The notes under the pieces are model-generated. The model was not told where the DNA came from, ran no database searches, and worked only from the letters and a program-made list of their open reading frames with translations. A program made the translations under genes and the position numbers. 64,000 nucleotides of DNA from Treponema socranskii subsp. paredis ATCC 35535 (GTDB lineage: Bacteria; Spirochaetota; Spirochaetia; Treponematales; Treponemataceae): the NCBI GenBank assembly GCA_000413015.1, contig KE332515.1, forward strand, positions 1,632,377 through 1,696,376, in the 5' to 3' direction. Of the stretch, positions 2,014-61,479 are shown in pieces. Within the stretch, counting starts at the first letter, position 1. Each line of letters opens with the position of its first letter.

Positions 2014-4404
2014 ATGAAAGTTTTGGAAATAAACAAAGCGTTTCGCAAATTCGGCGAAATCCAAATTAAATTCAGATGGCTTTTTTTAATCGCCATGTTC
2101 ATCATCACGGCAGTCGGATTTTCGGGTTTAAGAAAATTCGTTGCCGAAGATTCGCAGGAAGATTGGTTCGGCGACAAAGAAAAAATCAAACTCGCAACCG
2201 ACCGCTTTGAACAAACATTCGGAAACGAAGACGTCATCACGGTTTTGGTTCAATCAAAAGATATATTCGATTCCGATGTTCTCAACATGATCGACCGGCT
2301 CGGAAACGAAATGCTTGAATCGATTCCGTATGCGCGCGAAGTAACATCCGTAGTTGAAGTATCGGTTATAAAAGGAACGGAAGACGGCATGGAAGTCGTC
2401 ACGCCTTTCAAAAACGGGATCCCCGATACGCACACGGCAGAAGGCAAAGCGGAGATGGATTCCATCAGACAATTTCTCCTGTCTCGCAAAGCGATCGCAA
2501 ACAAACTCGTTTCCGAAGATGCGACCGAAACGTGGGTCATCCTCAACTTGTACGGTTACGGCGAAGAAGACAATAAAGCGCGCACCGGTATGTATAAAGC
2601 CGGCAGAGCGGCGCACAAACTGCTCGACGACCCGAAATGGCAAAGCGACAAATGGAATCTCATCTGTGCGGGAACGCCGTATACCGAATGCGAAGAAAGC
2701 GACGTAATGAGGCGGGAAATGTCCCGCAATATCATAAGCGGCTTTATCGCTATGATCATCTGTTTGATTTTATTCGTCCGGTCGCTGAGAGGACTGATCG
2801 TACCGGTTTTTTCGACCGTCGGCGGTATCTGCGTCGTATTCGGATTTATGGCGTATTTCGGCATCGTCGCCGATCAAAATATGATGAGCATTCCTATTCT
2901 GCTCGGCATGGCGCTGTCGGTCGGTTATTCGATCCACTACATCAATTCATTTAAGCTGCATTTCAGACAGACGGGGCTTCGGAAAGAATCCGTCATCACG
3001 TCGGTTGAAGAAACCGGCTGGCCGCTCTTTTTTACCGCACTCACGACAATCGCTTCGCTCATCTCCTTCGCCTTCGTCGATATCGGACCTCTCAAATGGC
3101 TCGGCGTAACATCTTCGGCGACCGTTTTAGTCGTATTCCTCTATGCGATTATTTTAATTCCCGTTCTGCTTTCGTTCGGTAAAGACAAAAAAGCCGATCG
3201 GAACACGCAGATGCAAAAAGCTACGAAAACCGATCTCGCGTTCGAATCTTTCGGAAAGCATGTGCTCAAACACAGTAAAGCGGTTCTCATTATCGGCTTT
3301 GCAATGGTCATGGTTTTTATACCGGGGATTTTCAAGATCCGCGTAACGCTCGATTATATCGAAATGCTCGGTACAAAGGTTCCGTACATCGCACGATTGG
3401 TAAAACTGCAGGATACGCAGCTCGGTTCCGTGTTTTCGTACAAAATATTAATCGAGTATCCGGACGTCGACGAATTTAAAAAACCTGAACGTATGAAAGC
3501 GCTCGAAGCACTCGAAAATCGGCTCGGCAATTTAAGTTTGACGCGCAAGTCGAACGGTACGCCGCGCGTCCAATCGGTTCTCGATATCGTAAAAGAAACG
3601 AACCTCATGCTCAACGGAGACAACGCGGCATACTATACGATTCCCGATGACGAAGCTTTGTTGACGCAGGAACTTTTTCTCTATGAAAGTTCGGGCGGCA
3701 CAAGACTCTACAATTGGATCAATGCCGATTACAACATGGCATACGTCAACGTCAACCTCGCGACATACGACAGCGACCGAATCGTATCGAACATCGCGGA
3801 TGCCGAAAAAGCGGCCGAAGAACTTTTCCCCGGAGCCGAAGTTTCGGCTATCGGAGCGGTTGCCGAATTTGCGGAAATGAACGGCAAAATCGTAAGAGGT
3901 GAATTAAAATCCTTTGCCGGCTCATTCATCATGATCGCCGCAATGCTCATCCTCGTATTTATGAGTATCCGAACGGGACTCATCGGTATGATCCCGAATA
4001 TAACGCCGGTGATTATTCTCGCCGGCATCATGGGCTATTTCCGCTTCCAGCTCGATATGATGACGATGACCGTCATGCCGATGATACTCGGCATCGCCGT
4101 CGACGACACGATCCACTTCATCAATCACGTTAAATATTATTATGAAGTGCACGGCAATTACCGAGATGCGGTTTTACGTACGTACCTTGAAGTCGGAAAG
4201 ACAATGTGTATGACGACGGTCATCATCTGCGCCATGTTCCTTGTGTTTTCGTTCAGCCTGATGAATGCAACACACCGCGTCGGTATGCTGTCGATTATCG
4301 GTTTGACGACGGCACTCGCTGCCGACTATCTCATGACGCCCGTACTCATCTACGTGACAAAACCTTTCGGAAAAGAATTCGACGAAAAGAAAAATAATAA
4401 TTAA
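2014..4404 (+). CDS. RND/MMPL superfamily exporter
   Basis: A 796-residue inner-membrane transporter with the two-fold RND layout: one N-terminal helix (about residues 20-40), a periplasmic domain (about 45-230), five helices, a second helix-plus-periplasmic domain and a final block of helices ending with GIAVDDTIHFINH. This resembles the hydrophobe/lipid-exporting MMPL and sterol-sensing subgroup rather than drug-efflux AcrB (which is over 1000 residues). Start ATG 2014 is chosen because GGGAG lies 7 nt upstream and the family N-terminus follows; an in-frame ATG at 1963 lies inside the repeat element and has no ribosome site. Substrate unknown. No periplasmic adaptor gene is next to it. Confidence 0.85.
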   Translation: MKVLEINKAFRKFGEIQIKFRWLFLIAMFIITAVGFSGLRKFVAEDSQEDWFGDKEKIKLATDRFEQTFGNEDVITVLVQSKDIFDSDVLNMIDRLGNEMLESIPYAREVTSVVEVSVIKGTEDGMEVVTPFKNGIPDTHTAEGKAEMDSIRQFLLSRKAIANKLVSEDATETWVILNLYGYGEEDNKARTGMYKAGRAAHKLLDDPKWQSDKWNLICAGTPYTECEESDVMRREMSRNIISGFIAMIICLILFVRSLRGLIVPVFSTVGGICVVFGFMAYFGIVADQNMMSIPILLGMALSVGYSIHYINSFKLHFRQTGLRKESVITSVEETGWPLFFTALTTIASLISFAFVDIGPLKWLGVTSSATVLVVFLYAIILIPVLLSFGKDKKADRNTQMQKATKTDLAFESFGKHVLKHSKAVLIIGFAMVMVFIPGIFKIRVTLDYIEMLGTKVPYIARLVKLQDTQLGSVFSYKILIEYPDVDEFKKPERMKALEALENRLGNLSLTRKSNGTPRVQSVLDIVKETNLMLNGDNAAYYTIPDDEALLTQELFLYESSGGTRLYNWINADYNMAYVNVNLATYDSDRIVSNIADAEKAAEELFPGAEVSAIGAVAEFAEMNGKIVRGELKSFAGSFIMIAAMLILVFMSIRTGLIGMIPNITPVIILAGIMGYFRFQLDMMTMTVMPMILGIAVDDTIHFINHVKYYYEVHGNYRDAVLRTYLEVGKTMCMTTVIICAMFLVFSFSLMNATHRVGMLSIIGLTTALAADYLMTPVLIYVTKPFGKEFDEKKNNN

Positions 4405-43823: not shown

Positions 43824-45245
43824 TTATTTTAAGAATACGATCATGGAAAGTATAAACATAAATACGGTTCCCGCAATCATCGGAACGGAAGTCCGCTTTA
43901 CGATTTCAAACGGCGTTTTCTTTACGCTTCCGGCAACGATGATAACGACCGCGGACACGGGTGAAACAGCACGCAGCAAATTGCCTCCGAGTCCGAGCGG
44001 AATGCTGAGCGCCAACACGTTGATACCCGCAGCGGCGGCGAGCGGTACCATAAGCGGCACCATTGCATAAAACAAAGCCGTACCGCTTCCGCTCAGCAAA
44101 ACGATGAGCGCGGTCAGGAAAAGCAATATCAAAGGCAAAGCGAAACCCGTCCCCGAGCCTCCGATTCCCGTCATTAAATTCTGCAAATGCGTCATAATGC
44201 CGATCGATTTTAAACCGACGACGAAAACGCTTGCAGCGACAAGCAGAACGACAACGGGAATAACGCCGCCCATTCCTTTGAAAAAGTGTTCCGTACCTTC
44301 GAGCGCTTTTTTCGCGCTTTTATTTCTGATGATTTCGCATACGACGGCGATAATGAAGGAACACAAGGTCGCGATTTCAACGGTCAATTTAATTTTGATC
44401 GAAAAAGCGATATCGAGGACAAATATGACAATTAAAAAAATGATCGGCAGCAAGGGAAGCAAACCGTAGACCGCCGTAAACAAGGGACCGTGTTTTGCTT
44501 CGCTCGTTTCCTTTTGTACGATTGTTTCATCCGCAGCGATGCCGCCGGATTTTTTGTCCATAATTTTTTGCCAAAAGAAATGAACGACAGCCATTACCAA
44601 AAGCGTGGGCACCGATACGAGCGCGTGATATTTGAAAACATAATCCGACACCGTCAAACCTGCGTATTGGGCGGTATTGGCAAGCTCCGCGGCTATAGCG
44701 ACGTTATCGCCTCCAAGCGGAGTCGGCATAACCGTCGCCGTCGTTGCTATAACGGCCGCCGCCGTCAGCACGCTCATCCCCGATTCAAGCAAAACGGGCA
44801 GCAGCGTCGCCAGTAAAATAATCGCCAAATTCGATGCGCTCGGAATAACGAGCGACAAAAAATTTCCGATTAAAAAAACGAGCGGCACGAGCACATACAC
44901 CGACTTTATTTTTTTTACGGGTTTCAGCAATATCGAAACGGTTACTTTATTCGCTTCGATATGCGACATATACGCCGAATAGCCGCCCAAAATCAGAATA
45001 ATAAATCCTGCCGATGAAAGCGTCGATTTGAATTGCGCTATAATTATTTCAAGCGGATCCAAAAAAGCAAGTCCCGTGCTTGAAAAATTTTTGAACGCAA
45101 GAGGTTTGCCCATGAGCAAAGCGGCATACATCAGTATCACGCCCAATAAAAAAAGCGATATTTTAACATCCATCTTTTTTATGAGAAGATACACGAGAAG
45201 AGCAAAGGCGGCGATCGCCAAGCCGTACATTAAAAACACATCCAT
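43824..45245 (-). CDS. DcuC-family carrier
   Basis: 473 residues, about 12 helices; SLVIPSASNLAIILLATLLPVL, TPLGGDNVAIAAEL, and near the end LGGNLLRAVSPVSAVVIIVAG are typical of the DcuC/C4-dicarboxylate exchanger family. Its place between a nucleoside hydrolase and sugar kinases hints at a nucleoside or sugar substrate. The start is at the end of repeat element copy B, whose GGGAG provides the ribosome site. Substrate untested. Confidence 0.8.
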   Translation of the reverse strand: MDVFLMYGLAIAAFALLVYLLIKKMDVKISLFLLGVILMYAALLMGKPLAFKNFSSTGLAFLDPLEIIIAQFKSTLSSAGFIILILGGYSAYMSHIEANKVTVSILLKPVKKIKSVYVLVPLVFLIGNFLSLVIPSASNLAIILLATLLPVLLESGMSVLTAAAVIATTATVMPTPLGGDNVAIAAELANTAQYAGLTVSDYVFKYHALVSVPTLLVMAVVHFFWQKIMDKKSGGIAADETIVQKETSEAKHGPLFTAVYGLLPLLPIIFLIVIFVLDIAFSIKIKLTVEIATLCSFIIAVVCEIIRNKSAKKALEGTEHFFKGMGGVIPVVVLLVAASVFVVGLKSIGIMTHLQNLMTGIGGSGTGFALPLILLFLTALIVLLSGSGTALFYAMVPLMVPLAAAAGINVLALSIPLGLGGNLLRAVSPVSAVVIIVAGSVKKTPFEIVKRTSVPMIAGTVFMFILSMIVFLK

Positions 45246-45471
45246 AGTTTTCTCCCATAAAAACTTTTGCAGGAAATATCAATTTCCGAAAAAGTTTTTA
45301 GCCGTGCGCGTATGCGCACACGTTCAATAGTCGAGTTTGCAAAATAAAGCGTATCGTATTCATGCGACTTTTATCGAAACGACACATATACACGTCTTTT
45401 GCAAACATCCGTGCAAACTCGAGATAAAAAGCGTCGGCGATATTTCAGACGGCGCTTTTTATCGTATCTCC
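45246..45471 (-). repeat. Dispersed leader element, copy B
   Basis: 226 bp on the minus strand, filling exactly the gap between the TAA stop of the nucleoside hydrolase (45472) and the carrier gene; the element starts right after the stop with GGAGATACGATAAAAA. The 3' part has outer arms AAAAACTTTT (45290-45299 read on the minus strand) and AAAAGTTTTT (45259-45268), enclosing GGAAAT-TGAT-ATTTCC (45272-45287). The GTGCGC-ATAC-GCGCAC hairpin is also present. No promoter separates the two genes, so here the element is intercistronic. Confidence 0.85.
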
Positions 45472-60635: not shown

Positions 60636-60664
60636 TTGACAGCAAACATATCGGAATATACCAT
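60636..60664 (+). promoter_or_regulatory. Promoter upstream of leader element C
   Basis: TTGACA (60636-60641), 17-nt spacer, TACCAT (60659-60664). Transcription would begin near 60671, so element C forms the whole leader of the gene at 60916. Confidence 0.65.
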
Positions 60665-60690
60665 ACGAGTATCTTGCAAAAGTTTTTATA

Positions 60691-60915
60691 GGAGGTACGA
60701 TAAAAAACGCCGTCTGAAATATCGCCGTCGCTTTTTATCTCGAGTTTGCATGGATGTTTGCAGAAGACGTGTATATGTGTCGTTTCGATAAAAATCGCAT
60801 GAATACGATACGCTTTATTTTGCAAACTCGACCATTGAACGTGTGCGCATACGCGCACGGCTAAAAACTTTTTCGGAAGTTGCAACTTCCTGCAAAAGTT
60901 TTTATAGGAGTAAAT
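60691..60915 (+). repeat. Dispersed leader element, copy C
   Basis: 225 bp from GGAGGTACGATAAAAAACG to the GGAG ribosome site of the gene at 60916. A stray 3' end (TTGCAAAAGTTTTTATAGGAG, 60674-60694) lies directly before it. Stems: TCGAGTTTGCA pairs with TGCAAACTCGA further on, GTGCGC-ATAC-GCGCAC at 60843-60858, outer arms AAAAACTTTT (60863-60872)/AAAAGTTTTT (60894-60903) around the 16-bp palindrome GGAAGTTGCAACTTCC (60875-60890). Confidence 0.85.
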
Positions 60916-61479
60916 ATGAGCGACATAATCCGATTGGGTATTACCGGTATTCTAATATCGTTTATTTTCTTTTTGATGAAGCGGAGCAAGAAAAAAGACT
61001 TGGACACAAACACCGACAGGAGATTAAAATTGCCGACCTATGTTCTCTTCATCGGTCTTATAGATTTTCTGCTGTTTTTCGGATTCGCTTTATTTTCAAA
61101 CCTCTTCCCGAACGGAACGGAGTCGGCAGCTACGACTATACTGTTTTCAATTTTTGCATTGCTCGGAATCTTTCTCGTATATATGTATTTTGTCGAAAAC
61201 TATACATACGATGAAAACGTTATAATATACAGGAAAATAAATTTAAAAAAAATAACAATAGAATGGAACTCGATTGTCGATATAAAGTATTCGTCCGCGA
61301 TGCAATGGTTTATCATAAAATGCAGCGACGGTACAAAAGGATATTTTTCGGTAATGCTGAAAGGGATGAAACCTTTTGCCGAAACGATTTTACAAAAGGT
61401 TGCCGCGGGAAAAACGGATTCCAAAACGCGCGAAACGCTTATCTCTCTGAAAAACGGAAGCGTCGTGGGAAGCTTTTGA
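60916..61479 (+). CDS. Membrane protein of unknown function with PH-like tail
   Basis: 187 residues: three helices (about 4-21, 41-62, 72-95), then a cytosolic beta domain YTYDENVIIYRKINLKKITIEW resembling bacterial PH-like domains. ATG 60916 follows element C and its GGAG. Second gene of the window that uses this element with a promoter just upstream. Family not recognised. Confidence 0.6.
   Translation: MSDIIRLGITGILISFIFFLMKRSKKKDLDTNTDRRLKLPTYVLFIGLIDFLLFFGFALFSNLFPNGTESAATTILFSIFALLGIFLVYMYFVENYTYDENVIIYRKINLKKITIEWNSIVDIKYSSAMQWFIIKCSDGTKGYFSVMLKGMKPFAETILQKVAAGKTDSKTRETLISLKNGSVVGSF

Follow-up and report, generated by a model that had tools for sequence, protein, structure and literature searches.

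Among the closest described counterparts of the element reported here are the MITE-like bacterial repeats bcr1 of the Bacillus cereus group, RUP and BOX of pneumococcus, NEMIS, and ERIC (PMC3049150, PMC2267715, PMC3733652). Like these repeats, and as expected of a MITE, the element is short (under about 500 bp), non-coding, palindromic, dispersed, and mostly intergenic; several of the known families also show flanking duplications, and the modular composition is shared with BOX. A target-site duplication is revealed by flank comparison and by locus L033 (see below). Unlike the known repeats, it has no long terminal inverted repeats, and none in common with an autonomous insertion sequence; no donor transposase is known, and its target is a ribosome-binding site. 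The REP and BIME sequences, which are moved by RAYT (TnpA-REP), are likewise hairpin DNA of high copy number and have a short conserved tract at the hairpin foot. In contrast to them, our element comprises four hairpins in approximately 140-380 bp and is flanked by a covarying duplication. A further point of reference is given by two Rfam families in clan CL00124, TD-1 (RF03155) and TD-2 (RF03162), labelled 'Cis-reg' and 'sRNA', respectively. The feature under study is very probably a mobile, hairpin-ended, MITE-like DNA element that targets Shine-Dalgarno (SD) sequences, and is best classed as an SD-targeting variant of the MITE-like dispersed repeats.

Three copies, A, B and C, are located in the window, i.e., the whole 64-kb stretch of DNA analyzed here. 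A sequence-only reading had described them as highly alike, which is confirmed by sequence and alignment and by the genome search (94% identity between B and C). It had also placed an SD at the right end of each copy; this was borne out for all three, and a purine-rich, SD-like tract is present at their left ends as well. Element limits were set by comparing all copies, and flank boundaries were placed by hand. The features are listed below in window coordinates.

1689-2003, + strand: copy A, 315 nt; P1 contains an optional module of 84 nt, and the tip of P4 is extended (sequence and alignment)
1684-1687 and 2004-2008, + strand: flanks of copy A, GGAG on the left and GGGAG on the right
2014-4404, + strand: gene downstream of copy A, MMPL/RND family transporter (PF03176, E 1.6e-30)
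45257-45466, - strand: copy B, 210 nt (sequence and alignment)
45468-45471 and 45252-45256, - strand: flanks of copy B, GGAG and GGGAG, respectively
43824-45245, - strand: gene downstream of copy B, DcuC-family C4-dicarboxylate carrier (PF03606, E 1.3e-65; NCBIfam DcuC_1 above cut-off)
60636-60664, + strand: promoter-like hexamers TTGACA-17-TACCAT upstream of copy C, a consensus match only
60672-60690, + strand: probable remnant of an older copy, TTGCAAAAGTTTTTAT, matching the element's right end directly
60691-60695, + strand: SD-like tract GGAGG left of copy C, interpreted as the left-hand repeat of the target-site duplication (sequence and flank comparison of all copies)
60696-60905, + strand: copy C, 210 nt (sequence, alignment, and Rfam matches)
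60699-60739, 60740-60831, 60843-60858 and 60862-60904, + strand: hairpins P1, P2, P3 and P4 of copy C, respectively
60906-60910, + strand: SD AGGAG right of copy C, which serves the downstream gene and is the right copy of the duplication; 5 nt spacer to the ATG at 60916
60916-61479, + strand: gene downstream of copy C, a 187-aa protein, apparently a membrane protein

The start of copy C had been read as 60672, which also takes in about 17 nt that resemble the right end of an older copy. Judging from the sequence, copy C probably inserted into the SD of this older copy, whose right end remains at 60672-60690. The left flanks of loci L005, L012, and L013 are similar to this remnant-bearing flank. 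A promoter had been proposed just upstream of C and probably of A; a promoter-like consensus match lies directly upstream of C, while a scan of the + strand revealed none for A. The 187-aa protein downstream of copy C has no match in Pfam and NCBIfam. The optional P1 module of copy A, which many copies share, includes a terminator-like hairpin at 1739-1760 (GAAAAACGCTGAAGCGTTTTTC followed by TTTTAT), and copies with this module might attenuate transcription into the gene.

The four hairpins follow each other in the order P1 to P4. The leftmost hairpin is P1 (GATAAAAAGCG...CGCTTTTTATC). Most copies have a long P2 (CGAGTTTGC...GCAAACTCG), which in some is cut back to a short hairpin; P3 reads GTGCGC...GCGCAC, and P4 (AAAAACTTTT...AAAAGTTTTT) is immediately followed by AT and the SD. 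Extra modules can be taken up by P1 (84 nt), P3 (38 nt), and P4 (two kinds), which accounts for the element lengths of about 145-380 nt. The two element ends have only about 7 bp (ATAAAAA) in common. Copies scoring best against TD-1 constitute a second, sister subfamily of approximately 137 nt, GGAAGG-TTTAAACGAGCC...GCATTTTAA-GGAAGG, which follows the same four-hairpin plan with other stem sequences.

When the genome (2.74 Mb, two contigs) was searched at the DNA level, 97 matching pieces were recovered at approximately 45 dispersed places, among them tandem or nested copies. An SD-like purine tract, in most cases AGGAGG, lies before each left end that was found. All 32 curated complete copies of the window's subfamily are bordered by such tracts on both sides, the right one lying a few bases 5' of the start codon of an open reading frame, compared with at most 9 of 36 copies before a start codon in the sister subfamily. 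Complete right ends terminate in a GGAG-like tract before a start codon; exceptions are given by a few tandem copies that abut the next copy (L013/L020, L035, copy C of the window, L005, and L012). The downstream genes are diverse. They include the triosephosphate isomerase gene tpiA and leuD, coding for LeuD, and, by inspection, genes for ArgB-, FtsY-, ClpX-, and UxaC-like proteins, flagellar-like proteins, and lipoproteins. The earlier impression that all of them encode membrane proteins stemmed from a sample of three and fails genome-wide. Dozens of genes in these treponemes, probably some essential ones among them, have leaders of 200-400 nt which are insertions. At the contig ends, identical copies were found (L016/L024 and L073/L074 on contigs C1 and C2), which are probably not true duplicates but arise from contig overlap.

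A mobile translation-start cassette had been one of the two options offered by the sequence-only reading, and it is supported by the dispersed copies, the SD duplications, empty sites, and copies that inserted in tandem, into the SD at the right end of another copy. Within individual copies, the left flank matches the right one, in the window's SD subfamily (permutation P = 0.0009) as well as in the sister subfamily, where none of 20000 permutations reached the observed matching. Paired flanks comprise GGCCGG/GGCCGG at L067, located within an arm of a hairpin resembling a terminator, GAGGAGGC (L057), GGAATG (L066), and AGAGG (L019). The duplication is less sharply defined in the SD subfamily than in its sister; both flanks of the SD subfamily resemble SDs.

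Empty sites are found in related species. The gene pair at the copy B locus is also found in T. lecithinolyticum, where the orthologous site is empty (TGTATATAAGGAG...ATGGATG); this site reads TGTATATAAGGAGTGGAGAGGTAAGATTATGGATG as compared with TGTATATAAGGAGA-[element]-GGGAGAAAACTATGGATG in the window. In about 55 congeners, tpiA and leuD are mostly preceded by a plain SD without the element. A TD-1 hit at the tpiA SD was identified in G011, and similar hairpin-bearing leaders were recognized by eye at tpiA in G007 and at leuD in G006, where Rfam gave no hit. Seventeen copies of the SD subfamily were compared in four other species; all of them are located at start codons, and most are 86-93% identical. 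The complete copies read in these species also have the SD of an open reading frame at their right end. Three of the 17 precede genes common to this genome, all three in its closest relative, G131.

A further case within this genome is L033 (500-650). Here, the element interrupts a gene of the rpn family (T_den_put_tspse), ...AAAAGCAGAGAGG-[element]-GAGAGGTGATGAATATG..., and is bordered by a 6-bp duplication, GAGAGG-[element]-GAGAGG, whereas the paralogue at L144 (2406-2798) is uninterrupted and reads AAAAGCAGGGAGGTTATGAACATG. Since Rpn genes in E. coli also encode a small C-terminal protein that starts internally (PMC10327210), the insertion site at L033 is probably the internal SD of a nested small protein, which would fit the target preference of the element.

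Only 13 of the 54 GGAGG tracts in the window (24%) lie at gene starts, and thus the SD location of the copies is not a matter of chance. It could be the outcome of selection alone, with insertion into any GGAGG-like tract and loss of those insertions that hit genes. Outside called genes, 13 of 18 GGAGG tracts and 7 of 8 AGGAGG tracts in the window are located at gene starts, such that a preference for GGAGG-like tracts combined with the loss of in-gene insertions would put most copies at SDs. The location of the GGAAGG-targeting sister subfamily, which is mostly elsewhere, points in the same direction. However, the 32 of 32 copies at SDs exceed an expectation of 72% (0.72^32, about 3e-5), while they are not far from one of 88% (0.014), and this strictness leaves room for some further SD preference. 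Whether selection suffices by itself appears to us evenly balanced, and this reading does not compete with the best explanation but belongs to it.

We envisage mobility at the DNA level, brought about by a trans-acting enzyme that recognizes the hairpins, with a near-neutral effect on translation. The element would insert into a purine-rich tract and duplicate about 5-6 bp of its target, and in the window's subfamily, the targets would be GGAGG-like tracts, in practice SD sequences. After insertion, the old SD would remain at the left end, and an equivalent one would lie right behind P4, only a few bases from the start codon. With its SD duplicated, the host gene would retain a functional ribosome-binding site and stay translatable, and the insertion would be tolerated. 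The palindromic ends are probable recognition sites of the trans-acting enzyme. Tentatively, and as the less probable side of the matter, transposition could even be specialized for SDs, carried out by an enzyme outside the characterized families that cuts and duplicates GGAGG-like tracts at a hairpin-ended element. Each insertion would then create the next landing site, and the sister subfamilies would have evolved different target tracts, GGAGG as opposed to GGAAGG or GGAACG. The element would represent a clear example of survival by landing in, and restoring, a ribosome-binding site.

A single-strand HUH transposase of the IS200/IS605 or RAYT type would explain the palindromic subterminal hairpins and the short conserved tract at both ends in a different way, as GGAG and GGAAGG would be cleavage tetranucleotides as in REP rather than duplicated target, and REP-type repeats are a known kind (PMC3733652). 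We consider this unlikely. The Y1 (HUH) transposase domain PF01797 has no match in the own genome, which has the highest copy number; in this respect, the element differs from REP and BIME. Furthermore, unusual tracts match between left and right within a copy (GGCCGG, GAGAGG, GGACG, GAATG), as predicted for a duplication. Two DDE_Tnp_1 genes are present in the genome, and their terminal repeats are unlike the ends of the element; they lie close together (L180 and L181, contig C1 about 1476858-1480704), and one has an in-frame stop. Neither an autonomous partner nor a larger version with the element's ends was seen at the left-only and right-only genomic hits that were read, phage and plasmid collections gave no match to the element, and a literature search for Treponema MITEs or SD-targeting repeats found nothing relevant. 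Rpn-family genes, a family named after putative transposases of T. denticola, were considered as the mobilizing enzyme and found no support, the rpn copy at L033 being an insertion target.

The second option of the sequence-only reading was a cis-acting RNA, i.e., a leader that acts as a riboswitch or thermosensor or binds a protein, with its last hairpin regulating how accessible the SD is. The conserved four-hairpin fold with its covariation, the position of the SD directly after P4, and the typing of TD-1 as cis-regulatory by Rfam are in agreement with it, and the RNA fold of copy C is more stable than that of shuffled sequences (z = -3.3). Nevertheless, we regard a cis-regulatory RNA as very unlikely. 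The downstream genes are functionally unrelated, most copies of the sister subfamily do not precede a start codon, and most orthologous genes of the relatives are devoid of the element. The idea that the hairpin next to the GGAG opens or closes the ribosome site finds no support in P4, which leaves the SD unpaired, and no conserved alternative pairing of the SD was recognized by eye.

Covariation over many copies had been named as a check. It is strong in P1 and P4, with changes on both sides in 14 of 23 pairs (19-copy alignment), but shows no strand preference as expected of an RNA. Under selection at the RNA level, G-U pairs would be tolerated on the transcribed strand, and A-C pairs would not. 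In P1 and P4, however, mismatches amount to 25 G-T versus 31 A-C, to 15 versus 12 without the inner, less certain P1 pairs, and to approximately 11 versus 10 in the independent 19-copy alignment. A small control with tRNA stems gave 7 G-T and no A-C (Fisher P about 0.01 against 25:31). Because both mismatches are equally common, the fold is not selected as the RNA of one strand. The palindromes look conserved without strand preference, as DNA recognition sites would be, although some RNA role after insertion could be contained in the strong stem conservation. Counting G-T versus A-C is a cheap test that is applicable to other orphan RNA motifs.

At gathering thresholds, no Rfam family passes in the window, and ten further loci have no TD-1 match. 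In a permissive search, copy C matches TD-1 at 60733-60909 (+ strand) with 49.9 bits (E 2.3e-07; gathering score 64.5), and this match spans the full model from 1 to 120 and ends in AUAGGA at the SD. The TD-2 match of copy C (60695-60827, - strand, 21.7 bits) is below the cut-off of 48.7 bits. TD-1 thus covers P2 through the right SD of the window element, while TD-2 covers the reverse strand of P1 and P2. Judged by score, the window copies are sub-threshold relatives of TD-1 rather than members by the Rfam cut-off, and they differ from both families in that they form an SD-targeting subfamily with a longer P2 and optional modules. The genome contains 64 TD-1 hits, four of them above 64.5 bits and all four in the sister subfamily, and 38 TD-2 hits, with one copy outside the window passing (56.5 bits). 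An overlap with a TD-1 hit was seen for 23 of the TD-2 hits, in every case in antisense and in 22 at an offset of 33-37 nt; the remaining ones that were read correspond to shortened or divergent copies of this element. The eight overlapping hits from other species of the genus are all antisense, too, which adds up to 31 of 31. Because the overlaps are exclusively antisense, TD-1 and TD-2 appear to capture one mobile DNA element on its two strands, in contrast to their labels as cis-regulatory RNA and sRNA. The original description of the two families, which share one Rfam clan, may already note their relation. If our interpretation is true, a single mobile DNA element accounts for two catalogued structured-RNA families, one for each strand, and repeat families can be mistaken for candidate riboswitches.

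Spread by reverse transcription, as of a degenerate intron or retroelement, is least credible, since neither a reverse transcriptase (PF00078, RVT_1) in the genome nor an Rfam intron match was found and the strand-symmetric pairing changes speak against a structurally selected RNA intermediate, even though catalytic RNAs have comparable peripheral hairpin modules, structured and optional, and target-primed reverse transcription is one way to generate target duplications.

Other repeats were encountered along with the TD-1-like copies. At L037 (about 100-200) and L041 (about 660-780), a different repeat (GACTTAATCTTAAACTCGACAGGCTGTC...), which looks like a further hairpin repeat family, accompanies or interrupts them. 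Three TD-1 copies (L047, L059, and L151) share one larger repeated context, GGAACGCGAGGCAGCGG...CTGACCGAG-[TD-1]-...AATGGCAAGC, which suggests a composite repeat. In other genera of the order (G042, G045, G047, and G048), TD-1 gave no hits and TD-2 did, some of them above threshold; the element family may be wider than TD-1 implies.
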